This document shows, in pieces, positions 12,913 through 40,374 of a stretch of DNA of 45,919 nucleotides. Within the stretch, counting starts at the first letter, position 1, and every line of letters starts with the position of its first letter. The notes under the pieces are model-generated. The model was not told where the DNA came from. It saw only the letters and a list, made by a program, of their open reading frames with translations, and did no database searches. A program made the position numbers and the translations under genes. Origin of the DNA: Thiorhodospira sibirica ATCC 700588 (GTDB lineage: Bacteria; Pseudomonadota; Gammaproteobacteria; Ectothiorhodospirales; Ectothiorhodospiraceae); contig NZ_MU255056.1 of NCBI RefSeq assembly GCF_000227725.2, positions 2,737,809-2,783,727 on the forward strand, read 5' to 3'.

Positions 12913-14517
12913 TCACACCGGCGGCAGATTTAGCTGTTTCAGATACTGGTTATGCTGGTTTGCTGCCTCAGCCATGCGCTTTTCGATCTCCCCCAGCCGC
13001 GCATGTACCGCTTCCAGGTCGATGTCCTCCTCGGCCTTGGCGGTGCTGACATAGCGGGAGATGTTCAGGTTGTAGTCGTTCTTCTCGATCTCCTCCATGC
13101 TCACCCGGCGGGAATAGCGTTCTTCTTCCTGGCGGTGCTGGTAGGTCGCGACGATCTTGTCGATGTGCTCGGGCTTGAGGAAGTTCTGGCGCTTGCCTTT
13201 CTCGAAGTGCTCGGCGGCGTTGATGAACAGCACGTCGTCGGGCTTTTTGCATTTCTTCAGCACCAGGATGCAGACCGGGATGCCGGTGGAGAAGAACAGG
13301 TTGGGCGGCAGGCCGATGACGGTGTCGATGTGGCCGTCTTTGAGTAACTTGGTGCGGATGCGCGACTCGACCCCGCCCCGGAACAGCACGCCGTGGGGCA
13401 GGATGATGGCCATCGTGCCTTCGTCGCTGAGGAAGTGGAAGCCATGCAACAGAAAGGCGAAGTCGGCAGCGGATTTCGGGGCTAGACCGTGGCTCTTGAA
13501 GCGGAAGTCCTCGCCCAGCGCCTCGTTGGGCTCCCAGCGGTAGCTGAAGGGTGGATTGGCGACCACCGCATCGCATTTCAGCTTCTTGGCCGGGTTCATC
13601 TCGCTAAGCAGCGGCCAGTCATTGGTGAGGGTGTCGCCGTGGTAGATGCTGAACTCGCTGTCTTTCAACCCGTGCAGCAGCATGTTCATGCGCGCCAGGT
13701 TATAGGTGGTGATGTTTTTCTCCTGCCCGTAGATCATGCCGATGCCATGCGGCCCCATCTGCTGGCGGACGTTGAGCAGCAGGGAGCCGGAGCCGCAGGC
13801 GAAATCAAGCACAGATTTCAGGCGCTGCTTCTTGCCGGTGGAGGGGTCCTGGCTGTCGAGGGTGACGATGCGCGAGAGGATGGTGGAGAGCGTCTGCGGG
13901 GTGTAGAACTCCCCGGCCTTCTTGCCAGAGCCAGCGGCAAACTGGCCGATCAAATACTCATAGGCATCGCCCAAAATGTCGCTGTCGGTGGAAAACTCAG
14001 CGATACCCTCGGCGATCCTGGTGAGGATGGTGCAGAGCTTTTTATTGCGCTCGGCGGGAGTGCGCCCGAGTTTTTCGGAGTTCAGGTTAATCTCGGAAAA
14101 CAGACCCTGAAAGGTGCTGGAAAAGGATTCGTTCTCGATGTACTTAAAGCCGCGCTCCAGGGTTTGCAGCAACGCATTGTCCTGGGTGCGGGCGCGCTCG
14201 TACAGACTGCTCCAAAGATAGTCCGGGTGGATAACATAGTGAATCTTGCGCCGTATATGCGCCTCAAACTCGGGCACATCAGCGGCATTGTCGGCATACC
14301 AGAGCGCGAGCGGGGCGCGGCGGTCGTCGGCGGCGGGCGTGGGGTAGTCCCCCTTGAGTTCATTTTGCGCGGCGGCCTCGTAGTTGTCGGAGAGGTAGCG
14401 CAGAAACAGAAACGACAGCATGTAATCGCGGAAATCGTCGGCATTCATCGCGCCGCGCAGATCATCAGCGATGCTCCAGAGGGTTTTGCCGAGTTGGCTC
14501 AGTTGTTCTTGGGTCAT
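12913..14517 (-). CDS. hsdM: Type I restriction-modification methylase subunit HsdM
   Basis: HsdM (534 residues) is the N6-adenine methyltransferase subunit that acts with HsdS, and with HsdR for cleavage. The helical N-terminal domain (about 5-150) is followed by GEFYTP (202-207), SAM motif I DFACGSG (238-244) and catalytic motif IV NPPF (321-324). The ATG overlaps the stop of the RelE-like gene as ATGA, so it is translated from the same message. It is the last gene of the island, with toxin-antitoxin pairs separating it from hsdS. Confidence 0.96.
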   Translation of the reverse strand: MTQEQLSQLGKTLWSIADDLRGAMNADDFRDYMLSFLFLRYLSDNYEAAAQNELKGDYPTPAADDRRAPLALWYADNAADVPEFEAHIRRKIHYVIHPDYLWSSLYERARTQDNALLQTLERGFKYIENESFSSTFQGLFSEINLNSEKLGRTPAERNKKLCTILTRIAEGIAEFSTDSDILGDAYEYLIGQFAAGSGKKAGEFYTPQTLSTILSRIVTLDSQDPSTGKKQRLKSVLDFACGSGSLLLNVRQQMGPHGIGMIYGQEKNITTYNLARMNMLLHGLKDSEFSIYHGDTLTNDWPLLSEMNPAKKLKCDAVVANPPFSYRWEPNEALGEDFRFKSHGLAPKSAADFAFLLHGFHFLSDEGTMAIILPHGVLFRGGVESRIRTKLLKDGHIDTVIGLPPNLFFSTGIPVCILVLKKCKKPDDVLFINAAEHFEKGKRQNFLKPEHIDKIVATYQHRQEEERYSRRVSMEEIEKNDYNLNISRYVSTAKAEEDIDLEAVHARLGEIEKRMAEAANQHNQYLKQLNLPPV

Positions 14518-14759
14518 CGATAGCTTTCTCTTCGGTGAAGAACCCGGCCAATCAGGATAGTCTCGCCGTCGATATCGAATAAAACGCGATAATCGCCAAT
14601 CCTAAGCCGATAGGCCGGCTCGAAATTCGTCAATCGTTTCAGATTAGGTACATCTGGAAAATCGACTAACGTCTTGATCGCCTCATGCAGGCGTTGTTTT
14701 TGGTGCTTGTCAATCCGTTGCAGATCCTTGATCGCGCTCTTGCGCAATTCAATCCGCAT
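14514..14759 (-). CDS. RelE/ParE-family toxin
   Basis: This is an 81-residue basic protein of the RelE/ParE superfamily. MRIELRKSAIKDLQRIDKH opens the alpha-helical hairpin and YRLRIGDYRVLFDID is the conserved beta-sheet core. The end, ILIGRVLHRRESYR, carries the conserved C-terminal His-Arg region. RelE members cleave mRNA on the ribosome; ParE members inhibit gyrase. This one looks more RelE-like, but I cannot decide firmly. The ATG at 14759 overlaps the antitoxin stop by 11 bases; a TTG at 14777 in frame is the alternative. Its stop overlaps hsdM as ATGA. Confidence 0.85.
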   Translation of the reverse strand: MRIELRKSAIKDLQRIDKHQKQRLHEAIKTLVDFPDVPNLKRLTNFEPAYRLRIGDYRVLFDIDGETILIGRVLHRRESYR

Positions 14760-14937
14760 GGGATAAGTAATCCTCAAACGGCACTGACGCCTCTCGGCGC
14801 GTCGCGTGAAGCGCCTTCAAGTCTTCAAGGTCTTCGACAGAGATGATCTCCAGGCCATCCTCCTTGAAGTGCTCAAGCCACCACAGAACCTGTTTGGCTA
14901 ACTGATCGTCTTTGATGTTGATTGTGATCTGATGCAT
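14749..14937 (-). CDS. RelB-like antitoxin of the RelE pair
   Basis: The gene encodes 62 residues, acidic, directly upstream of and overlapping the RelE-like toxin. The sequence begins MHQITINIKDDQLAKQVLWW, a short strand and helix seen in small antitoxins that dimerise through the N-terminus. The C-terminal part, with SVPFEDYLSHAD, would wrap the toxin. GAGGAA of the preceding scar ORF serves as ribosome-binding site. The role is inferred from size and position. Confidence 0.75.
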   Translation of the reverse strand: MHQITINIKDDQLAKQVLWWLEHFKEDGLEIISVEDLEDLKALHATRREASVPFEDYLSHAD

Positions 14938-14943
14938 TATGAA

Positions 14944-15048
14944 TTATTCCTCTTCGGTGACGGATACAACCGGAAAAAGCGTCTGCATCCGCCCTTTTTT
15001 GTGGGTTTTTAGGGTTTTGCCGAGTTGGTTCAGTTGTTCTTGGGTCAT
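14944..15048 (-). pseudogene. Chimeric scar: hsdM 5' end fused to hsdS 3' end
   Basis: A 34-codon in-frame ORF starts MTQEQLNQLGKTL, almost identical to the hsdM N-terminus at 14517 (MTQEQLSQLGKTL). It then switches to KTHKKGRMQTLFP and ends VSVTEEE, matching the end of hsdS (LKLHKKGLMQQLFP and SATEEE near 15660-15730). It is thus the two outer ends of an hsdM-hsdS pair with everything between deleted. Its ATG overlaps the PIN toxin stop as ATGA, just as hsdM overlaps relE. It may still be translated as part of the coupled message. Function is unlikely. Confidence 0.8.
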
Positions 15049-15437
15049 TGTTCAAGACTCGGCTTCAGGGTCACTCTCTCGGTATTGAGTCCAAGGCGCT
15101 CAAAATCGCTCGTATTATGAGTCACCACTGTTAAATCATGAACGAGCGCCGTCGCGGCGATGATGGCGTCCGGGGTTTTGGTTTTAAACTGCTGCCGCAA
15201 GCGAATCGTCTGCTCAATGATTGCCTCGGAGAGCGCGAACACTTGAGCATGGCTGAGAAAGGCTTGCGCCTGGTTGTAGAGCCGAGGATCGCTGGCAAAT
15301 CCGCTCCATCCCAAGAACTCGATCTTGGTGATGGCGGAGATGTTGAAACTCTCGGCCAGACGCTGATGCAGGGTTTCATCGGCGGTCAGACCGTTGAAGT
15401 AATAGATGACGATATTAGTATCGAAAAGATGAGTCAT
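15045..15437 (-). CDS. PIN-domain (VapC-like) ribonuclease toxin
   Basis: This is a 130-residue PIN-domain protein. The first acidic residue is in MTHLFDTNIVIYY (Asp6), a Glu lies in ITKIEFLGW, and the C-terminal acidic pair is in TPDAIIAATAL and VTHNTSDFERL. This is the VapC pattern of an Mg-dependent endoribonuclease toxin. The start ATG overlaps the preceding antitoxin stop as ATGA, and the stop overlaps the hsdM/hsdS scar the same way. Confidence 0.88.
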   Translation of the reverse strand: MTHLFDTNIVIYYFNGLTADETLHQRLAESFNISAITKIEFLGWSGFASDPRLYNQAQAFLSHAQVFALSEAIIEQTIRLRQQFKTKTPDAIIAATALVHDLTVVTHNTSDFERLGLNTERVTLKPSLEQ

Positions 15438-15652
15438 TCACGCCAACCTTCGCGCGCTTCGGCCAGGTACTGATCTACGGCTTGCCGTGACTGGTGTGCT
15501 AGACCATAAAAGCGTTTAGGGTCAAAGCGTTCCCGTGCTCGCTCAGTGGTGCCATCATCCTGCACAAGTTGTTCAAGAACAATCTGCATCAAGCGGATTT
15601 TTTCCGCATGAGACAGCGAATTCACCGAAGGAATCAGTTGTTCGATGGTCAT
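15434..15652 (-). CDS. Antitoxin of the PIN-domain toxin
   Basis: This is a 72-residue protein directly upstream of the PIN toxin and coupled to it by an ATGA overlap; its own ATG overlaps the hsdS stop in the same way. The N-terminal half is helical (LSHAEKIRLMQIVLEQL). The C-terminal half, with FDPKRFYGLAHQSRQAVDQY, resembles toxin-wrapping tails. I do not assign it to a named antitoxin family. Confidence 0.75.
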   Translation of the reverse strand: MTIEQLIPSVNSLSHAEKIRLMQIVLEQLVQDDGTTERARERFDPKRFYGLAHQSRQAVDQYLAEAREGWRE

Positions 15653-16932
15653 GGCGTCGGTTCCTCTTCGGTGGCGGATGCCACCGGAAAAAGTTGTTGC
15701 ATCAGCCCTTTTTTGTGCAATTTGAGGGCGTCGAGTTTGTCGGCTTGGGCGGTGATGAGGGTGTCGAGGGAGGAGAGGCAGGCGGCGATTTTTTGTTGTT
15801 CGTCTAATGTAGGTGGTATCTGAAAAGGTAAGGATGCATATTCTTTTCCGTTTATTCCAGGCTGGCCGCTACGAGCAGAGATAAAGGCAACCCAGCGCCA
15901 ATATTTTTCGGTTGAAAGGAATTGATACAATAATTCGGAATCGAGTTTATTTTCGTCCGGTCTTATCCGAATCAAGAATCCAGCAAAAACCAACCTGCCA
16001 TCTTTTTTTCTGTACTTGTAAGCTTTACCAACACTCGCGCCAGTTCTAGCAAGTACGATATCGCCTTCCTCCAGATAATTCTGGTCGGTTACATTCTTGG
16101 CAACAGATACCTTTTGATCTTGACGGATCTGCCCATCGTCAGAAATGTCAGTTATCCGGAGATAGACAGGAAGTTTTTCGTGGTATGCCACCGCTGGCGC
16201 ATTGATTCCATACTCAGGCTGTCTTGAAAGATGTTGGCCTAACGTAGTTTCCTCCCACTCCCCAGCCTCCCGAAACTCGGGAAAGCGCAGGCGGGGGACG
16301 GTTTCGCCCTCGCGGGGGAAGAGCTGCTGCATCAGCCCTTTCTTGTGGGTCTTGAGGGCGTCGAGTTTGTCCGCCTGCGCGGTGATCAGGGCGTCGAGGG
16401 AGGAAAGGCAGGCGGCGATTTTGCGTTGTTCTTTTAGGTTTGGTAGGTAGACCGCGAGTTTTGAAATGTCTTCTTTTGTAAAGCCTTTAATAGCCATGCC
16501 TTGGCCAAAGCTTTCCAGTACACTTCTGTTTGACGCAAGCAAATAGCCAAGAAATTCAAGATTATCGTTCCACGGTGTCAAATTGGTAAAGTCTTGACTT
16601 GTGCAAACAGAAGATTTCGTTATCGCAAGTTTTCCAACCCCAACACGAGACACAAGAAGAATACTGTTCTTGGGCACTAGCTTTGTAGCTGAGTTTTTCA
16701 GAGCTTCAGGAGTGATGAATCGGCTGATTTTAATTTCATGGATCGAGTCTTCTGATATGTCAGAACTCGAAACCCATGGAATATTTCCTTTCCAAAAAGA
16801 GTCATTGCTTCTACTTGGCGTCCCGCCGCCAGTAAATTCACCAATTCCTTCAAGCGGCTTCTCCTCCCACTCCCCCGCCTCCCGAAACTCGGGAAACCGC
16901 AACCTCGGCACCAATCCTTTTTTCTCGCTCAT
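15649..16932 (-). CDS. hsdS: Type I restriction-modification specificity subunit HsdS
   Basis: HsdS (427 residues) recognises the bipartite DNA target. Two target-recognition domains are each introduced by PRLRFPEFREAGEWEE (from residue about 8 and about 213) and followed by a conserved helix (CLSSLDALITAQADKLDAL and its near copy CLSSLDTLITAQADKLDAL). Each half ends with HKKGLMQQLFP. The two halves are nearly identical in these spacers but differ in the recognition domains. The ATG overlaps the dinD fragment stop as ATGA. Confidence 0.95.
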   Translation of the reverse strand: MSEKKGLVPRLRFPEFREAGEWEEKPLEGIGEFTGGGTPSRSNDSFWKGNIPWVSSSDISEDSIHEIKISRFITPEALKNSATKLVPKNSILLVSRVGVGKLAITKSSVCTSQDFTNLTPWNDNLEFLGYLLASNRSVLESFGQGMAIKGFTKEDISKLAVYLPNLKEQRKIAACLSSLDALITAQADKLDALKTHKKGLMQQLFPREGETVPRLRFPEFREAGEWEETTLGQHLSRQPEYGINAPAVAYHEKLPVYLRITDISDDGQIRQDQKVSVAKNVTDQNYLEEGDIVLARTGASVGKAYKYRKKDGRLVFAGFLIRIRPDENKLDSELLYQFLSTEKYWRWVAFISARSGQPGINGKEYASLPFQIPPTLDEQQKIAACLSSLDTLITAQADKLDALKLHKKGLMQQLFPVASATEEEPTP

Positions 16933-17102
16933 TGATCCTCCAACCCGTCATAGCAGGCGTAGCACGTCAGCATGATGTCGCTGATCTCGCGTTGACTGCC
17001 GGAGCCGAGTTCGACCATTTTCCCGACATCGGCAAAATGGTCGGCGATGTCGTGGCCCCACACGAAGCTTTCCGTCATGGCGTAGACAAATTCATTGTGC
17101 AT
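16929..17102 (-). pseudogene. dinD-like fragment (57 codons)
   Basis: A 57-residue ORF with a good ribosome-binding site (AGGGGA) fills the gap between hsdR and hsdS. Residues 20-50, with ADHFADVGKMVELGSGSQRE followed by ISDIMLTCYACY, match the conserved core of DinD-type damage-inducible proteins, which are often carried in type I restriction loci. The full family is several times longer, and here the sequence departs after CYACY and stops. It is most likely the remnant of an intact dinD-like gene. The stop overlaps hsdS as ATGA. Confidence 0.65.
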
Positions 17103-17119
17103 ATCTCGATTTCCCCTTG

Positions 17120-20100
17120 TTATTCATATGCTGCTAATCCCGAAATCTCGCGTGCCCCGGCTTGCTTCTTGAGCACCGGGACTAATTCTACCATTAAGGC
17201 TGTCTCGGCCTTGCCGCGTGCCTTCCAGCCGAGATCTTGCGGAGCGAACAGCTCGCTCAGTTGCTCGCTGTCGAATCTCCCCCGCTCGATAATCTCCTCA
17301 AAAAAGCTGTGCAGCGCGTCGGCGTCAAGGCCGTGTCGCTCAGCGATGGCGGTGAGTTCTTCGCGGCTTTTGTTTGTCTTGAACACCTGATACTCGCCTT
17401 TGATCTCCTCAATACCGCCGTGGCCCTTGCCGACGTTCAGGGTGTCGATGTAGGCGATGATGTCCTCGCGCTCGTCCATCAGGTTGCTGTGGGCGCAGAG
17501 CAGATTGACGATCTGCTCGCGGGTCATGGTTTCCTTGCCCGGTGCCTCCTGACGATATTGGGCAATCAGGCCCATGATGTAGTCGTAATCAATCAGTGCC
17601 GAGGAGAACAGCACGAACTCGAAGTCGAGTTGGTCGATCTCCGGCGGAAGGGCGCCGTCGTTGCCGGTCTTGCCCTGCTTTTTGCGCAGCCGCTGGGCGA
17701 TCTCTATGTATATGCCCTTGAAGCCGCGATCAATCTCGGTGGGCAGGCATTGCTCGATCTGTTCGCGCTGGGCGTCGCTTAAGTCGGTGTATTGATTCAG
17801 ATCGGTCTTGATCCTTTGCACCGCCTTGAAGCATTCGATGAACTCAGCGCGGGCGATGTCGCCCTTGAGGTTGTTGACCGCTGCGGGGGTGAAGGGCTGG
17901 TTGTGGGCGGCCATGAACTGTTCGAGCTTTTGCACGGCGGCCTCGAACTTTTGGATGACGGTGGGCGCGGAATCGGCCAGCCAGATGTCGCGCGAGCGGT
18001 GGGTGTTTTCGCCGGAAAACAGCGCGATGGCGGCATCAACAGCCTGCTCTTGGGCGCGGAAGTCGAGAATCTGCCCGTGCGGCTTGGTGTCGTTGAGCAC
18101 CCGGTTGGTGCGCGAGAAGGCTTGAATCAGACCGTGGTGCTTGAGGTTTTTATCGACATAGAGGGTGTTGAGGTATTTGGAATCAAAGCCGGTCAGCAGC
18201 ATATCGACGACGAGGGTGATGTCGATCTTGAGGCGATGCGGCACGTCTTTTTTGGAGTACTGCTGATCCTTGATGCGGGTCTGCACGTCCTGATAATAGA
18301 GATCAAACTCGCTCAAGCTGTGGTTGGTGCCGTATTGAGCATTGTAGTCGTTGATGATGGCTTGCAGCGCGGCTTTTTTGTGCTCGGGCTCCTGCTGGTT
18401 GTCGGCCTTTTCTTGCGGCAGGTCTTCCTGAAGCTGCTTGACATCGCGGTTGCCCTCAGCGGGCGGCGAGAAAACGCAGGCGATGTTGAGCGGGTGATAA
18501 TCCGGGGTTTGTGTTTTGCGCTCGGCCTGAAGCTGCTTGAACAGGTCGTAGTAAGCGATGGCCTCGTTAATTGAGCCGGTGGCAAACAGGGCATTAAAGC
18601 GACGCTGGTTGGTGGCGGCGTCGTGCTTGGTAAGAATCGCCTCGGCGATGGCGCGCTGGGTCAGCGCCTGGTTGGGCTTGGGCGTGGCCGCAGACTCGCC
18701 CTCGGTCCTGACTTCGGGCTTGTAATACTCGATATGAAAGCGCAGCACATTGCGGTCATCAATGGCGTGGGTGATGGTGTAGGCGTGCAGCTGCTGTTGA
18801 AAAATATCCTCGGTGGTCTTGAAGGTGCCCTGTGTGCCGTCAATCTGGGTGTGGCTGGCGTTTTCTTCAAAGATCGGCGTGCCGGTGAAACCGAACAGTT
18901 GCGCCTTGGGAAAGAACGCCTTGATGGCCTGATGGTTCTCGCCAAACTGCGAGCGGTGGCACTCGTCGAAGATGATCACCAGGCGCTTGTCGCGCAGCGG
19001 GGCCAGGCGTTCCTTGTAGGTCTGCTTGCCTTTCTCCTTGTGCTGCAAGGCTTTCTTGCTGGATTCATCCAGCGCCAGGCCGAGCTTTTGAATGGTGGTG
19101 ACAATCACCTTGTCGGCGTAGTCCTCGGAGAGCAGGCGGCGCACCAGGGTCTCGGTGTTGGTGTTCTCCTCAACGCAGCCTTCTTGGAATTTGTTGAATT
19201 CGAGCCGGGTCTGGCGGTCGAGGTCTTTGCGATCCACCACGAACAGGCATTTCTCGATGTCGGGGTTGTCCTTGAGCAGGGTGGAGGCTTTGAAACTGGT
19301 CAGGGTTTTGCCGCTGCCGGTGGTGTGCCAGATATAGCCGTTGCCGCGATTCTGATGGATGCAGTCCACAATGGCCTGCACGGCGTAGATCTGATAAGGC
19401 CGCATGATCAGCAGCTTCTGTTCGCTGGCAACCAGCACCATGTAACGACTGAGCATCTGCCCAAGGGCGCATTTCGCCAAGAAAGCCTCGGCGAAGTCGT
19501 TCAGATGGGTGATCTTGCGGTTGTTCTGATCCGCCCACTGATAGATAGGTAAAAAGCGCTCGTCAGCGTTGAAGGCGAAATGCTGGCTGTGGTTGTTGGC
19601 GAAGTAGTAGGTATTGTTGCGGTTGCTGACGATGAACAACTGCATGAAGCAGAGCACGCTGTTGGTGTAGCCGTTGCCGGGGTCGTTCTTGTAATCAACG
19701 ATCTGCTCCATGGCGCGGCGCGGGGTAATCTCCAGGGTCTTCAGCTCGATTTGTACCAGCGGCAGGCCGTTGAGCAGCAGGATGACATCGTAGCGGTGGT
19801 GGCTGCTGTCGGTGTTGATGCGCAGCTGATGGATGACCTCGAAATGGTTTTTGCACCAATCTTTGAGTTTGACCAGCATGTAATGCAGCGCCGAGCCGTC
19901 CTCGCGCTGAAAATAGCCGATCTCGCGCAGCTGTCTGGCGGCCTGGAAGACATCGGCGCAGATGATCTTATCGCGCAGCCGGGCGAACTCGGTATCGGTG
20001 AGGCTGACCTGGTTCAGCGCCTCGAACTGGACGCGAAAGTTGGCCTCCAGCGCGGCTTTGTCGCGGATATCGGGGCGGTAGGTGTATTTCAGCTCCTGAA

Positions 20101-20146
20101 GCTTGGCGATCAGCGTTTGTTCAATCTGGCTTTCTGTCAGAGTCAT
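17120..20146 (-). CDS. hsdR: Type I restriction endonuclease subunit HsdR
   Basis: HsdR (1008 residues) is the translocase/nuclease subunit. The N-terminal nuclease site shows Asp120 in YDVILLLNGLPL and Glu134-x-Lys136 in QIELK. The superfamily 2 motor motifs are TTGSGKT (275-281), DECH (394-397) and TGTP (421-424). A C-terminal helical domain (after about 800) contacts the methylase. It is the first gene of the leftward island, and its length is normal for the family. Start ATG 20146 has GAGAAGG upstream. Confidence 0.96.
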   Translation of the reverse strand: MTLTESQIEQTLIAKLQELKYTYRPDIRDKAALEANFRVQFEALNQVSLTDTEFARLRDKIICADVFQAARQLREIGYFQREDGSALHYMLVKLKDWCKNHFEVIHQLRINTDSSHHRYDVILLLNGLPLVQIELKTLEITPRRAMEQIVDYKNDPGNGYTNSVLCFMQLFIVSNRNNTYYFANNHSQHFAFNADERFLPIYQWADQNNRKITHLNDFAEAFLAKCALGQMLSRYMVLVASEQKLLIMRPYQIYAVQAIVDCIHQNRGNGYIWHTTGSGKTLTSFKASTLLKDNPDIEKCLFVVDRKDLDRQTRLEFNKFQEGCVEENTNTETLVRRLLSEDYADKVIVTTIQKLGLALDESSKKALQHKEKGKQTYKERLAPLRDKRLVIIFDECHRSQFGENHQAIKAFFPKAQLFGFTGTPIFEENASHTQIDGTQGTFKTTEDIFQQQLHAYTITHAIDDRNVLRFHIEYYKPEVRTEGESAATPKPNQALTQRAIAEAILTKHDAATNQRRFNALFATGSINEAIAYYDLFKQLQAERKTQTPDYHPLNIACVFSPPAEGNRDVKQLQEDLPQEKADNQQEPEHKKAALQAIINDYNAQYGTNHSLSEFDLYYQDVQTRIKDQQYSKKDVPHRLKIDITLVVDMLLTGFDSKYLNTLYVDKNLKHHGLIQAFSRTNRVLNDTKPHGQILDFRAQEQAVDAAIALFSGENTHRSRDIWLADSAPTVIQKFEAAVQKLEQFMAAHNQPFTPAAVNNLKGDIARAEFIECFKAVQRIKTDLNQYTDLSDAQREQIEQCLPTEIDRGFKGIYIEIAQRLRKKQGKTGNDGALPPEIDQLDFEFVLFSSALIDYDYIMGLIAQYRQEAPGKETMTREQIVNLLCAHSNLMDEREDIIAYIDTLNVGKGHGGIEEIKGEYQVFKTNKSREELTAIAERHGLDADALHSFFEEIIERGRFDSEQLSELFAPQDLGWKARGKAETALMVELVPVLKKQAGAREISGLAAYE

Positions 20147-34630: not shown

Positions 34631-37600
34631 TCATTGCTCCGCACTGGGCGCGGCGCTGGAGAGCAGACGGAATATCTCGGCATGGCGGGAATATCTGGCA
34701 AGGTCTCGCGGGGTATATCCCTGTTCATTGTGGGCATGTACATCGGCCTGGTGGTCAAGCAAACGCTGCACCAGCTCGATATGGCCTTCTTCTGCGGCGC
34801 TGTGCAACGGGGTGTTGCCGTCAGCGTCGCGTACATTGACCTGTGCGCCGTAGCTCAGTAGCTGTTCTACCAACGCTGCCTGGTTTGCAGCGACGGCATA
34901 GTGTAAGGGGCTGCGTTGGCGAAAACCCGCTGTTTGCTCAATGTCTGCACCCAGTTCATGCAATAGTGCCAGACGCGGCGCATTCCCATTGTCAATCGCC
35001 TCATGCCAGAGGGTCTCGTCAAATCGGCTGATGCGGTTGATGTCCGCTCCCAGTTGATGCAGGTGACGCAGCAGCGCATCATCATCTACCCTAAAGAGCA
35101 GCGCATCGCCGGAGTTTATATACTCGGCATTCAAATCAACGCCGGCGGCGACCAACTGGCTTAGTGCCTCAAGATCGCTTTGGTACATCGCACCACGCAC
35201 GAGATCATCCAGCGGTGTGGGATCAGCCCCCAGCGCCAGCAGGCGTTGCACCGTCTGCGCATGGCCATGCAAGGCGGCCTGGGCAAGCGGTGTGTCTTCC
35301 CGCCGGCCTTCGTTGGGATCAGCCCCGGCGGCGATCAGCGCCTCAATGCTCGCGGTTTGGCCGACGCGGGCTGCCGCCTGGAATACCGACCAGGCAAAGC
35401 GCTCGCTATCCTCGGCCAACACTGCCACGCCACGCCGCAGCAGACGCTCAAGCTGTTTGACATCCCCTTGCAGTGCTGCGATGCGTACCGGTGGCCAGTC
35501 GATGTGTTGTGGATCCACTGCCGCACCGCGTGCAATCAAGGCCTCGGCCATGCCCAAAGGCATTTCCTGATCCTCCTGACCCAATAAGCCCGTCAGCGCC
35601 GTTTGCCCCTGTGCATCGCGGCTATTGATATCCACGCCCTGAGCCAGCAGGTAATCCACGGCCTCAAAAAGCCCACGGCTGACCGCATCGTGCAGCATCA
35701 ATGGGCCATATTGCGCCAGTTCCGGCTTTGCCCCCCGGGCGATCAGCCATTCTGTCAGGGCCTGCTGGCCTTCATTGATGGCCAGATGCAGCGGTTGCAG
35801 CCCGCCCTGCTCGGGTAAATCCAGGCGTGCCCCGTGCGCCAACAGCTCCGCCAGCAGTGTTTCATCGCCCAGCAAAACCGCAAAATGCAGTGGGGAGAAT
35901 GACTGTTCGTCATCCAGCACATTCACTTCAGCGCCGTGCGCCAAGAGCTGTGATATGGCTTCGCGCAACGCCTGTTGACGGGCCAGCATCCCTTCGTCGA
36001 TGTCCCAGCCGCGCATCACTAATTCCTGGTGTTGCTGATGAAAGTCGCGCATCAGCTTGCTGAGTTGCAGCAGCGGCGTCTCGCCATGAACATTGGTGGC
36101 GTTGATGTTCACGCCCTGTTTAAGCAGATAGCTGAGCGCATCCTGATATGCCAGATCATAGGCCACCCCTTGCAAGGCATAATGCAAAACACCATCACCC
36201 TGTTGATCGAGACTGTGCGCATTGGCCAACAGGCTTTGATCAGCCCCCTGGGCGATTAAAAGCGCCACTATCTCAGGATCATAATAGGCGACGGCCAGAT
36301 GCAGGGCGCTGACCTGGTGGGCATTGAGTGCATTGACCGGCGCTCCTGCCTCAAGTAATCGCTGTACCGCTGCAAGATGGTTACCCCCTGCGGCCAGATG
36401 CAGCGCCGTATGACCATCCTCATCCTGGGCATCCACCGCCACCCCGCGCTCAAGGTGACGGTTTATATCATCAAGATAGCCTACAGCGGCGGCTTGATGC
36501 AGTGAGGGATAGACCGTGTCGATATGCGCCAGCAAGACCTCAAGCACAGCCTCATGCCCTCTGGCATGGGCGCGTATGGCCGGAGTATCGCCACGCTGGT
36601 CAGCCAACAGCGGATCAGCCCCCAAACTCAGCAGAAACGCGACCACCTCCTGATGGCCACCCTCGGCGGCTAAATACAGAGCGGTTTGCTGATTGCGCGC
36701 CACGGGTAGATTGATGTGATCAGCCTGGGCCAGCAGACGCACGGCCTCAAGATGTCCCTGCCGGGCGGCGAGATGCAAGGGCATCTGTCCGTGGCGCTGG
36801 GTGGCCTGGGGCTCCGCACCCTTGGCCAGCAGGTGTTTGATAATTTCGGTATATCCTTGCTGTGCGGCCTGATGCAATGGCTGCTCATCGGCCTCATTGG
36901 CGACATTCACCGCAGCCCCGGCGGCCAGCAACAGCTCAACGATCTCCGGCTGATCCTGTCTGACCGCATGATGCAATGGCGTATTGCCGCGTGCATCTGC
37001 TGTGTTGGGATCAGCACCCTGCGCCAGCAGGGCGGCGACGGTGTGTGTCAGCCCCTGCTCAATGGCCAACTGCAGCAGGGTTCGCTGACTGCGATCAAGC
37101 AAGCCGGTATCCAGTCCGGCCTTGACCAGGGCAACACTGATGCGCTCCTGGGTTGCAGTGTCAAACTGGCGCTGCTGCAAGGTGAGATGAAAGGGACTGG
37201 GTGCATTGGCCTCAAGCGGATGCGGATCTGCGCCCTGCGCGATTAAACGCAACGCAATCTCGGCATGACCGCGTTCAATGGCGCGGGTTAAGGGGGTGTG
37301 CTGACGCTGGTCAGGCTGATTCAGTGCAATGCCGGGGCGCTTTAACAGCATTTCGACCAGGCCCAGTTGCCCCACTTGGCTGGCCAGCAGTAGCGGCGTC
37401 TCGTTTCTGGGGCTTTGCGCATTCACATCAGACCCCAGCGCCAGCAAAGCCTCAGCAAAGGCAACGGCGCCGCGCAGGGCGGCAAAATGTAGCGCGGTCC
37501 AGCCTGAAGTCAGCTCCTGATTCAGATCAATTTCCGGATGATACAGCCTGCCGAGGATGGCCGCTGCCCCCTGTTCCTCATAAGGATCAATAAGAATCCC

Positions 37601-39049
37601 CGCCATGACAAACTCAAAGGGATAGTCCCCCCGTCGGGAGGCTAAGGCAGGATCAGCACCCGCATCAAGCAATACCTCAAGCAGCGGAAAGACCGCCGCA
37701 TTGCGTCGTATGCCAGCCGCCACAAGCAAGGCCGTGCGCTCATCGGGCAAGCGGGCATTGATCGGGGCACCGGCTTCGAGTAAAAGATGGGTAATCTGCG
37801 CATCGACCTGCTCAACCGCCAGGATCAACGGCGGCAGACCGCCCTTCGGGCCGCTCCCCACGGCATTGACATCCGCCCCCTGCGCCAATAAATAGGCCAC
37901 TATGTCGCGGTGCTGTTGTAAAACCGCCTGCTGCAATGGGGTGTACTGATCGGCCTGCCGCACAAAACCTATCGCGGCAGGTGCGCTTGGCGCATTCATA
38001 TCCACACCGGCCTGTACCAAGGCCCTCACCCCCTCAAGATCCCCGGCAGTCACCAGCGCCAGCAGGCTGGGCGGTTCGGCGTCCTCATCGGCTTCCACCA
38101 CTACCCCTAATTTAGCCAGCTCCATGCGGGCCGCCTGCTCCAAAATACTGCTGGAACGGCGCGTGGCGTGCGCCAGATACGCCTGATAAATCGCAATCGC
38201 CTGATCCGGTTGCCCAAGTCCTTGCAGGGCCCGACCGTAGGCGATGAAGTGATCCACCAGCCCCTCCGGCGCTGCCGCAGGCTCAGGAATCAGCGCCGCA
38301 TATAGTGCCACCGCCTTATCCCACTGCGCTGTCTGTTGATATAAAGACAGCAGGCGTTGTTTGACAAGGGGCAAGCCTTCACGGGCAAACATCGCAAAGT
38401 GCTCATCGAGCAGCGTGGAATCCGGGTAACGCGCAAGATACTGCTCCAAAAGCGCGATAGCCTGTTCCTGGCGCGGCGGGGTATAGCCTTGCAGATACAG
38501 ATTGCTCAGGCGCCAGTAGCCCATCTGCGCCTGTGGGGTATCCGGGGCTTCTTTAATCAGGCGCAAAAATAACGCCTCGATGGCCTCATGCTCCCAGCGT
38601 TCGTGCGCCGCAATCTGCGTACTGAGATCACGCGCCAGTATCTGCTGGGCTCTGAGATCCGCCTTACTCGAAGCAGGCGCAGCCAGTACTGCCTGCATAT
38701 GCTCGGCCAAGGCTGCCAGCGCGTCACGATATTCATGCAAGGACGAATCGGCGGCCTGTGCCTGCGCCATCAATGCCTCCAGCGCCGCACGATCCGCCGC
38801 CAGCAGATCAACATCCAGTGCGTGCAGACTCAGGGCCAACTGCACAAAAGGCGCGGGCAACTGATCCCAGGCACGCAAGGCACGCACCGTCAGCTTGCCC
38901 TCGGCCTCAAGCTGCTGTAATGAAGGCGGTGCCTGTGGCATGGAAGGTTCTGCCATCACCACCGTCAATGGATACAACAACACCCCACCAAGCACTGCCC
39001 GATACAAAGCCCTCAGCCTCTGAGGTCTGACACTGGCCGCATACTGCAT
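34631..39049 (-). CDS. Giant exported ankyrin-repeat protein
   Basis: A 1472-residue protein. A basic N-terminus and hydrophobic stretch (LGGVLLYPLTVVMA, ending near residue 33) look like a signal peptide, so the bulk should be periplasmic or surface-exposed. Residues about 40-330 are helical and TPR-like (GYWRLSNLYLQGY, YGRALQGLGQPDQAIAIYQAYL). From about 325 to the end are some 30 ankyrin repeats of the pattern G-x-TPLHxAAxxGHxxxVxxLLxxGADxxxxxxx. The last few are the best preserved, for example GNTPLHSAAEEGHIELVQRL. No catalytic domain is seen. It is flanked by IS remnants on its upstream side. The role is probably protein-protein interaction; the partner is unknown. Confidence 0.88.
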   Translation of the reverse strand: MQYAASVRPQRLRALYRAVLGGVLLYPLTVVMAEPSMPQAPPSLQQLEAEGKLTVRALRAWDQLPAPFVQLALSLHALDVDLLAADRAALEALMAQAQAADSSLHEYRDALAALAEHMQAVLAAPASSKADLRAQQILARDLSTQIAAHERWEHEAIEALFLRLIKEAPDTPQAQMGYWRLSNLYLQGYTPPRQEQAIALLEQYLARYPDSTLLDEHFAMFAREGLPLVKQRLLSLYQQTAQWDKAVALYAALIPEPAAAPEGLVDHFIAYGRALQGLGQPDQAIAIYQAYLAHATRRSSSILEQAARMELAKLGVVVEADEDAEPPSLLALVTAGDLEGVRALVQAGVDMNAPSAPAAIGFVRQADQYTPLQQAVLQQHRDIVAYLLAQGADVNAVGSGPKGGLPPLILAVEQVDAQITHLLLEAGAPINARLPDERTALLVAAGIRRNAAVFPLLEVLLDAGADPALASRRGDYPFEFVMAGILIDPYEEQGAAAILGRLYHPEIDLNQELTSGWTALHFAALRGAVAFAEALLALGSDVNAQSPRNETPLLLASQVGQLGLVEMLLKRPGIALNQPDQRQHTPLTRAIERGHAEIALRLIAQGADPHPLEANAPSPFHLTLQQRQFDTATQERISVALVKAGLDTGLLDRSQRTLLQLAIEQGLTHTVAALLAQGADPNTADARGNTPLHHAVRQDQPEIVELLLAAGAAVNVANEADEQPLHQAAQQGYTEIIKHLLAKGAEPQATQRHGQMPLHLAARQGHLEAVRLLAQADHINLPVARNQQTALYLAAEGGHQEVVAFLLSLGADPLLADQRGDTPAIRAHARGHEAVLEVLLAHIDTVYPSLHQAAAVGYLDDINRHLERGVAVDAQDEDGHTALHLAAGGNHLAAVQRLLEAGAPVNALNAHQVSALHLAVAYYDPEIVALLIAQGADQSLLANAHSLDQQGDGVLHYALQGVAYDLAYQDALSYLLKQGVNINATNVHGETPLLQLSKLMRDFHQQHQELVMRGWDIDEGMLARQQALREAISQLLAHGAEVNVLDDEQSFSPLHFAVLLGDETLLAELLAHGARLDLPEQGGLQPLHLAINEGQQALTEWLIARGAKPELAQYGPLMLHDAVSRGLFEAVDYLLAQGVDINSRDAQGQTALTGLLGQEDQEMPLGMAEALIARGAAVDPQHIDWPPVRIAALQGDVKQLERLLRRGVAVLAEDSERFAWSVFQAAARVGQTASIEALIAAGADPNEGRREDTPLAQAALHGHAQTVQRLLALGADPTPLDDLVRGAMYQSDLEALSQLVAAGVDLNAEYINSGDALLFRVDDDALLRHLHQLGADINRISRFDETLWHEAIDNGNAPRLALLHELGADIEQTAGFRQRSPLHYAVAANQAALVEQLLSYGAQVNVRDADGNTPLHSAAEEGHIELVQRLLDHQADVHAHNEQGYTPRDLARYSRHAEIFRLLSSAAPSAEQ

Positions 39050-39182: not shown

Positions 39183-40374
39183 ACCTTACCACCTATCAAT
39201 TTACTCACGGGCACGAAAAGCCGGCAGCGGCAGGTCGTTTTGCAGACAGCGCATCAGGTAGCGCAAGCCACGTGTGAACCACGAAACCAGGCTGCGGGCA
39301 AGCTTGCGAAAGCGCCAGTGGTTCGGATCGTCCTGTGCTTGGTTTTTTTTCGAGCGGGGTCGGAGGGTGGCACGCCTGTTCGCGCCCAATGCGCACACAC
39401 CCATACATCGCCAAGGCCATGATCAACACCCGGCGTTCCAAACGATCCGCATGGCGCAGGTGCGAATCCCCCAAGCCAAATCCTCGCCCCTTGAAGTCGG
39501 AGAACATCGGCTCGATGCCCCAGCGCGTGGCATAGTCCAGTACGCGCGCACGGGTCGGAATCGCATCCATGGCCATGATCCATGGCTGTGGATGCCCCGG
39601 GTCATGCACAATTCCCAGGTGGGTCACCACCCCAGAGGCGAACAGGCGCACACCCGGAAAATACGCTTCCCGCACACCCTTGGCCAAATCCCCGGTCGTG
39701 GTCTCCGCCACGCCGGTGTCCACCCGCAGATTCCCCTTCAAGCGCAACCGGTAGCCCCATTCGTGCGCATGCAACCACGCGAACAGCGCCGCCGATGGGT
39801 AGAACCGATCCGCCAACAGCAGCACCCGCGCCCCAGCCGGCAGCCAAGCCAACACCGTCTCCAGGAGGGCTTGCTGGCCCGCAAAGCCGATGTTCGCCGC
39901 GCCTTGCCTGGCCCACCAAACCAACGGCAACGCCCGCTCGCTCACGCGCAAGGCCAACACCCGCAATGCCATCCGATCCCCCAAATCGGTTTGATCCAGA
40001 CTCAGGCACAGCGTCTGATCGTGACGGGCCGCCTGCGCCAGTTCGGCCATCGCCAGCGGCTTGATCATGTCGGTTGGACACACCAACGGGTTCTTCAGCA
40101 AGCGTCTCAACCACTGTTCGCGCATGTCTTGGCGCTCGGTCTCCAGCGGCAACACATTCGCCAACTCCACCGTGTTGGCGGTTTGCCCCTCGATCATCGC
40201 TCCGACCACCAGCGACAGCTTCCTCACCACCGTCAGGCGCAGCCCCGGATGCGGCTTTGCGCAGTCCACGTTCCACCTCTTCTGCCAAGCGTTTGATGCT
40301 TCCCATGCCCACCCCCATGACCTCAGTTCAGCTAACCCTCAGAGTTTGCCATAAAAGTGATAGGTGGCAAGGTT
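39183..40374 (-). mobile_element. IS4-family insertion sequence, copy 1
   Basis: About 1.19 kb, bounded by terminal inverted repeats: ACCTTACCACCTATCA at 39183 and, reversed at the right end (to about 40374), AACCTTGCCACCTATCAC. One transposase fills the element. No target-site duplication could be matched between the two flanks, which suggests that deletion or recombination followed insertion. Confidence 0.85.
39205..40269 (-). CDS. IS4-family transposase
   Basis: A 354-residue DDE transposase. The acidic triad appears as Asp in LSLDQTDLGD (about residue 85), Asp in LLADRFYPSAAL (about 157) and Glu in RWGIEPMFSDFKGRG (about 240), the last within the Y-R-E-K signature of IS4. The N-terminal 60 residues are a helical DNA-binding region. 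The GTG start at 40269 is used because homology begins there in both copies. The gene appears intact. Confidence 0.88.
   Translation of the reverse strand: MDCAKPHPGLRLTVVRKLSLVVGAMIEGQTANTVELANVLPLETERQDMREQWLRRLLKNPLVCPTDMIKPLAMAELAQAARHDQTLCLSLDQTDLGDRMALRVLALRVSERALPLVWWARQGAANIGFAGQQALLETVLAWLPAGARVLLLADRFYPSAALFAWLHAHEWGYRLRLKGNLRVDTGVAETTTGDLAKGVREAYFPGVRLFASGVVTHLGIVHDPGHPQPWIMAMDAIPTRARVLDYATRWGIEPMFSDFKGRGFGLGDSHLRHADRLERRVLIMALAMYGCVRIGREQACHPPTPLEKKPSTGRSEPLALSQACPQPGFVVHTWLALPDALSAKRPAAAGFSCP

Follow-up and report, generated by a model that had tools for sequence, protein, structure and literature searches.

Within a 45,919-nucleotide stretch of the genome of Thiorhodospira sibirica ATCC 700588 (contig NZ_MU255056.1, positions 2,737,809 to 2,783,727; hereafter the window), one reverse-strand gene (34631–39049) encodes a giant, predicted exported ankyrin protein of 1472 residues. 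On balance, we consider it somewhat probable that this protein is a periplasmic ankyrin scaffold docked by an ~80-residue N-terminal module on an envelope sensor that is TagQRST-like and independent of a type VI secretion system (T6SS). Sec would export the protein to the periplasm, where the module would dock it on a machine composed, in our proposal, of a VWA protein lacking a kinase, an ABC ATPase, a permease of the LolCE/FtsX type that carries an insert, a periplasmic protein of formylglycine-generating enzyme (FGE) fold and a glycine-zipper outer-membrane lipoprotein. The ~207-residue periplasmic insert of the permease would be the receptor of the module, and a TPR domain and a solenoid of some 30 repeats may provide a large scaffold to which further proteins, periplasmic or incoming, bind. 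In Pseudomonas aeruginosa, TagQRST senses damage to the outer membrane; by analogy, the job of the ankyrin protein is likely a response to envelope damage or contact. Since its module heads many exported proteins and goes with the machine, the protein is probably a partner of that machine and not a host-directed oddity.

An odd ankyrin protein thus becomes the marker of a scattered envelope system in Gammaproteobacteria and Desulfobacterota that is apparently undescribed so far: among the titles listed in our literature searches, nothing joined formylglycine, FtsX, VWA and glycine-zipper, and nothing relevant appeared on Ectothiorhodospira ankyrins. The module offers a sequence tag for finding clients of this system, and two questions become testable, namely what TagQRST-type sensors do without a T6SS and whether the enlarged permease recognizes the module.

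Domain architecture of the ankyrin protein

The gene is a single, uninterrupted open reading frame (ORF) with an ATG start. Its N-terminus (MQYAASVRPQRLRALYRAVLGGVLLYPLTVVMA, followed by EP) shows by eye all three regions of a Sec-type signal peptide, predicted to span residues 1–33 with cleavage after VMA (38951–39049, reverse strand, as for all domains given here). Behind it lie the module (residues 40–120; 38690–38932), common to many exported proteins, a TPR-like helical domain (residues about 135–315; 38105–38647) recognized from a structure model and a homologue in genome G169, and an ankyrin solenoid (residues 335–1439; 34733–38047) delimited by profile matches, with 26 clear repeats and further degenerate ones. 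The ankyrin models of Pfam score 255 to 419 bits on the protein (Ank_2 418.7 bits), and a self-built repeat model gives 31 matches across residues 335–1439, 26 of them at or above 10 bits and the other five weak or spurious. A preliminary description, made from the DNA sequence, had given the protein 1472 residues, a signal peptide and ~30 ankyrin repeats, all of which hold, the last as a fair count. It had also assigned a helical, TPR-like front part: the AlphaFold model is indeed all-helical and TPR-like there (pLDDT 87.8), while matches to TPR and BamD-type families are weak, none reaching E ≤ 0.001; the front part is, however, two units, the TPR domain and the module, which had been overlooked.

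The protein contains no cysteine against ~23 expected from 14 other window proteins, which fits an extracytoplasmic location, and has 180 acidic versus 101 basic residues. Its size, its ankyrin repeats and an insertion sequence (IS) beside the gene would suit an effector directed at a host or predator and acquired horizontally, and Dot/Icm ankyrin effector models do match, the best at 244.6 bits, far below the cut-off of 600. Such matches are what any ankyrin protein would give, and the Sec signal peptide, the lack of cysteines, a base composition like that of resident genes and the absence of a T6SS sheath gene from the genome (other secretion systems were not searched) speak against an effector, which we regard as highly improbable. 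Nor is there evidence for the host-directed or symbiotic role suggested in the preliminary description: other bacteria also export ankyrins, and T. sibirica encodes a second exported one.

An N-terminal module shared by exported proteins

A search with the whole ankyrin protein covered 58 genomes, 31 of which matched, T. sibirica included; outside T. sibirica the matches were partial, with no full-length one, and residues ~30–130 matched ORFs of very different lengths. The shared segment (residues 40–120) has the consensus PxELxxLxxxGxLTVRALRAWGxLPxRFxxLALxLRxxxxDLLxAD and reads LTVRALRAW..LP...F..LAL.LH....DLLAAD in the ankyrin protein itself. The family does not depend on this protein's own row in the model, as phmmer with residues 1–345 as query returned 20 ORFs (best E 8e-17) from among those fetched for the module query. 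Neither Pfam nor NCBIfam holds a family for the module. AlphaFold predicts a five-helix fold (pLDDT 83.8, pTM 0.66) for which no fold relative was found in the PDB (one Foldseek match at E 9.9, none by VIA-align); the best of four PDB sequence matches at E ≤ 1, a designed helical repeat protein at E 5e-4, was taken as chance.

A genome scan placed the module at 25 loci in Ectothiorhodospira, Thioalkalivibrio, Wenzhouxiangellaceae, Oceanospirillales and several Desulfobacterota, and 64 distinct instances, fused to unrelated partners, were counted over all fetched loci. Fifty-one of the 64 start within 160 residues of the ORF start, ten end at most 40 residues from the ORF end and five are internal, two truncated ORFs being counted in both the start and the end group. 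By a crude test, a hydrophobic signal-like stretch is present in 47 of the 51 N-terminal carriers, and among the four without one are a truncated contig end and ORFs in which the start call probably lies too far upstream. Nine carriers tested against Pfam gave FGE-sulfatase (two), NHL (one), weak DUF1349 and Big_2 (one) or no partner (five); partners in other carriers are an S41 peptidase (Pfam/NCBIfam matches) and, read from sequence, WD40, Sel1 and ankyrin. Judged by these sequences, the module is a previously unnamed domain heading many unrelated, putatively exported proteins.

The operon beside the module genes

Beside module genes we find an operon in the order VWA protein, ABC ATPase, FtsX/LolCE-type permease, FGE-like protein and glycine-zipper lipoprotein, continued by a ~181-residue protein with coiled-coil-type matches, a PDZ/S41 peptidase and then module carriers (genes identified by Pfam and NCBIfam matches, the FGE-like ones placed by tblastn). 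Permease and VWA sequences are 53–74% identical to the first alignment row across phyla, and in four genomes (L053, L054, L056, L140) the S41 peptidase from the operon carries the module at its C-terminus. The ATPase is LolD/FtsE-like, and the permease combines an FtsX-type C-terminus (PF02687) with PDB sequence matches to LolF, LolC and LolE. Compared with short homologues, the long permease carries an extra periplasmic insert of ~207 residues (model positions ~229–435), absent between the first and second membrane segment in 11 of 11 short permeases examined. The loci of these 11, which were those fetched out of the 21 genomes with short permeases, all keep the VWA–ATPase–permease order; within the fetched stretches the module query found nothing better than E 3, and T6SS-region queries gave no match. 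The short permeases are taken to be the TagS-like ones; the loci with their VWA gene and ABC ATPase and without the module are L198, L200, L202 and L204–L211.

Scanning the VWA protein of one locus (L137) returned VWA matches and no kinase domain, a kinase elsewhere in the genome not having been searched for. Eight operon FGE-like proteins were examined, of which seven show an RGGS stretch, in no case with a cysteine, and the eighth (L151) has neither the stretch nor a cysteine anywhere. An RGGS stretch with catalytic cysteines after it is the motif of an active FGE, and one of the operon proteins matches a Treponema variable protein of lectin-like fold in the PDB; the missing cysteines and this match suggest that the operon FGE-like proteins may serve ligand binding, not catalysis.

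The same parts might serve a different end, with the module acting as no more than an assembly or sorting tag that the ABC permease reads and that is then, with the help of the S41 peptidase, cut off or passed on, so that carriers are displayed or released and the ankyrin protein acts outside the cell. Some members of the LolCE/FtsX/MacB type, to which the permease belongs, shuttle cargo from membrane to outer envelope, a processing peptidase of the S41 kind sits within the operon, and the module usually follows directly behind the signal peptide, though C-terminal or internal cases exist. The ankyrin protein has no lipobox, however, no conserved cleavage motif is seen by eye beside the module, and a tag of this kind leaves the module on the operon's own peptidase unexplained. 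We hold a sorting role to be unlikely.

Three further observations concern the carriers. The commonest in the family of T. sibirica is a protein of ~720–820 residues (L029:6236–8617, and L038, L040–L042, L044, L045 and L061), without a Pfam family in the one scanned (L029). Large carriers of 1190–1510 residues (L033, L034, L037, L136, L137, L139, L141, L148) lie beside or away from the operon; in L033 and L137, the two scanned, Pfam matches are marginal or absent. At L032:62–6868, a putatively exported protein of 2268 residues with FecR-like (by eye) and weak Ig-like parts has the module at its very C-terminus.

Co-occurrence of module and long permease

The module is present in 10 of the 47 genomes of the family of T. 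sibirica, and the full-length permease (>900 bits) occurs in exactly those 10; no other permease match in the family exceeds 40 bits or extends beyond the FtsX C-terminus. The 10 genomes represent three genera, and a chance match would be 1 in C(47,10), a figure uncorrected for kinship. In a sample of 274 genomes of the class, the module was found in three, one of them borderline at E 7e-4, and the long permease in two, namely those with strong module matches. Short homologues without model positions ~229–435 occur in 21 genomes of this sample, one of which also has the long form (for two of the 21, only one half was matched), and none of the 20 with only the short permease has the module. In the phylum of Desulfopila (G327), 2 of 297 genomes have the module. 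Among 16 module genomes tested individually, 12 have the full-length permease (it is missing from G290, G321, G323 and G324), and pooling gives 21 of 25, counting G315 and G318 as a single genome; 14 genomes were chosen for holding the module, so that the family, class and phylum are the only unbiased samples. Where both genes are present, they lie on the same contig within about 10.3 kb in 18 of 21 genomes, the exceptions being G013 and G322 (different contigs) and T. sibirica (51 kb to the nearest module gene).

Besides the ankyrin gene, T. sibirica has one further module gene, for a ~793-residue protein at C4:1.208 Mb. Its permease, FGE-like protein and lipoprotein are encoded at C4:1.257–1.262 Mb, and a lipoprotein-like gene, the VWA gene (1193 bits) and the ABC ATPase gene at C4:2.361–2.365 Mb, so that the operon is split between ATPase and permease into two pieces. 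Right behind the permease–FGE–lipoprotein genes stands an ORF with a TnpB-like zinc finger (L166:10468–11061, by eye), which may be a remnant of the rearrangement behind this split. A tree of 17 permease sequences, built with the machine's arrival in this lineage in mind, puts the T. sibirica copy on a long, unresolved branch.

Several points weigh against a docked scaffold. Computation establishes the domain order, the module family, its link to the machine and that T. sibirica encodes the machine; both the docking and the periplasmic location of the ankyrin protein are deductions from sequence. Because module and machine genes usually form one cluster, co-occurrence alone is no proof of contact, and 4 of the 25 module genomes lack the permease, three of them small metagenome-assembled genomes (MAGs; G321, G323, G324) and one a genome with a borderline module match (G290). 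Since short-permease loci show no module protein, the permease family at large cannot depend on docking. In T. sibirica itself, the ankyrin gene lies ~0.4 and ~1.5 Mb from the machine genes and ~1.6 Mb from its module paralogue, and the two machine loci revealed no S41 peptidase, a genome-wide search not having been made.

Comparison with known systems

Among the components of the TagQRST–PpkA pathway, TagR has an FGE domain and PpkA a VWA part. In P. aeruginosa, TagQRST comprises an outer-membrane lipoprotein, the periplasmic TagR and the ABC pair TagS/TagT, according to the accessible text of PMC6657622, PMC10482370 and PMC11881912; the pathway is needed for the outer-membrane damage response (accessible text of PMC11881912), and locus tags give the gene order tagT-tagS-tagR-tagQ (accessible text of PMC6657622). 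The operon described here resembles TagQRST–PpkA of the H1-T6SS in both the kinds of parts and the gene order: a TagS/TagT-type pair of FtsX permease and LolD/FtsE-like ATPase, adjacent in the operon and split over two loci in T. sibirica, and a glycine-zipper lipoprotein and FGE-domain protein in TagQ/TagR-like order, likened by part type and order alone. It differs in the lack of a kinase match in the VWA protein scanned, in the insert of its permease and in the added S41 peptidase and module-bearing proteins. A further difference concerns the T6SS, for which the sheath gene TssC/VipB (PF05943) is present in 5 of the 47 family genomes and is lacking from 6 of the 10 with module and long permease, T. 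sibirica included; a strict T6SS-accessory reading was accordingly rejected for T. sibirica. Because parts and order agree but the kinase match is missing from the VWA protein scanned and the sheath gene from those 6 genomes, we call the system TagQRST-like and do not assign it to the H1-T6SS pathway.

As here, genes of the Tag type also occur away from a T6SS in mostly T6SS-less, host-associated deltaproteobacteria, where tagQRST/ppkA genes occur with srfABC (accessible text of PMC3608642). We found no match to Srf families in 10 neighboring proteins scanned, so that the srfABC link prompted by that work was dropped, and the text of PMC3608642 accessible to us does not describe module-bearing proteins. 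LolCDE, FtsEX and MacB share the FtsX-type permease C-terminus and LolD/FtsE-like ATPase, and differ in that the long periplasmic region and operon partners are particular to the system here, whose scores fall far below the LolCE and LolD cut-offs. Tentatively, and with less than even confidence, we extend the docking proposal to the whole module family: the docking domain would define a TagQRST-derived, T6SS-independent system whose enlarged permease may read the domain on carriers with interchangeable heads (ankyrin, FGE-like lectin fold, NHL, Sel1, WD40, protease), such that one damage-sensing machine could serve many outputs in the periplasm or at the surface, among them the giant ankyrin protein.

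Relatives of the ankyrin protein

The only full-length relative found is a 1307-residue protein of a Thioalkalivibrio MAG, 33% identical over the best BLAST alignment, whose gene is followed within three bases by a module-FGE gene. With a full-length relative in just one other genome, the gene is not a widely conserved core gene, and its characterization as exported, very large and sporadic is borne out. Identity to the relative is 55.6% in the module, 55.0% in the TPR domain and 38–44% in ankyrin stretches, and a TPR domain like that of T. sibirica forms a separate protein adjoining the VWA gene in G169 (122 bits). Module and TPR domain appear on these grounds to be the conserved end and the solenoid the variable end, the pattern to be expected if the first serves for docking and the second for binding.

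Exported ankyrins of the AnkB type are encoded with a catalase; none was present among the scanned window genes. The ankyrin protein might be an ordinary AnkB-like periplasmic ankyrin, binding and stabilizing one enzyme, with a module that is an old fusion of no functional meaning. Exported ankyrins do occur elsewhere, AnkB being a periplasmic one (as cited in the accessible text of PMC10294975), and T. sibirica has another exported ankyrin ORF, which lacks the module and adjoins an mnmE-like gene. AnkB is, however, like the present protein only in being an exported bacterial ankyrin, the ~30 repeats, TPR domain and N-terminal module setting the latter apart, and a meaningless fusion is at odds with module and TPR domain being best conserved and with a module distribution that tracks the machine; we consider it quite doubtful.

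Genomic setting

T. sibirica belongs to the family of Ectothiorhodospira, and bchXYZ, bchC and crt genes in the window mark it as a bacteriochlorophyll producer, in agreement with its earlier designation as a phototroph. The ankyrin gene had been suspected of horizontal acquisition, with base composition as the point of comparison; its GC content (0.601) and GC content at third codon positions (GC3, 0.639) match those of the resident bch, crt, his and leu genes, and recent transfer, unsupported by composition, was rejected. Between the gene and tRNA-Ala(CGC), 133 bp upstream of the start codon, lies an IS element of ~1.19 kb (39183–40373, reverse strand), with a DDE transposase ORF (39205–40269) and 20-nucleotide terminal inverted repeats that are 90% complementary; it is a neighbor of the ankyrin gene and has no part in its function. 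That the gene stands alone next to an IS is true within the window but misleading, as the module links its product to an envelope machine whose genes lie elsewhere in the genome. The type I restriction-modification genes hsdM, hsdS and hsdR occupy window positions 12913–20146, and hsdM and hsdR look acquired, as their GC3 of 0.82 and 0.79 stands above the 0.61–0.72 of the other measured window genes. The second exported ankyrin ORF of T. sibirica (L030:6019–7875, 618 residues, C4 about 0.437 Mb) has a signal-peptide-like N-terminus and no module match, and is located by eye directly upstream of the mnmE-like gene.

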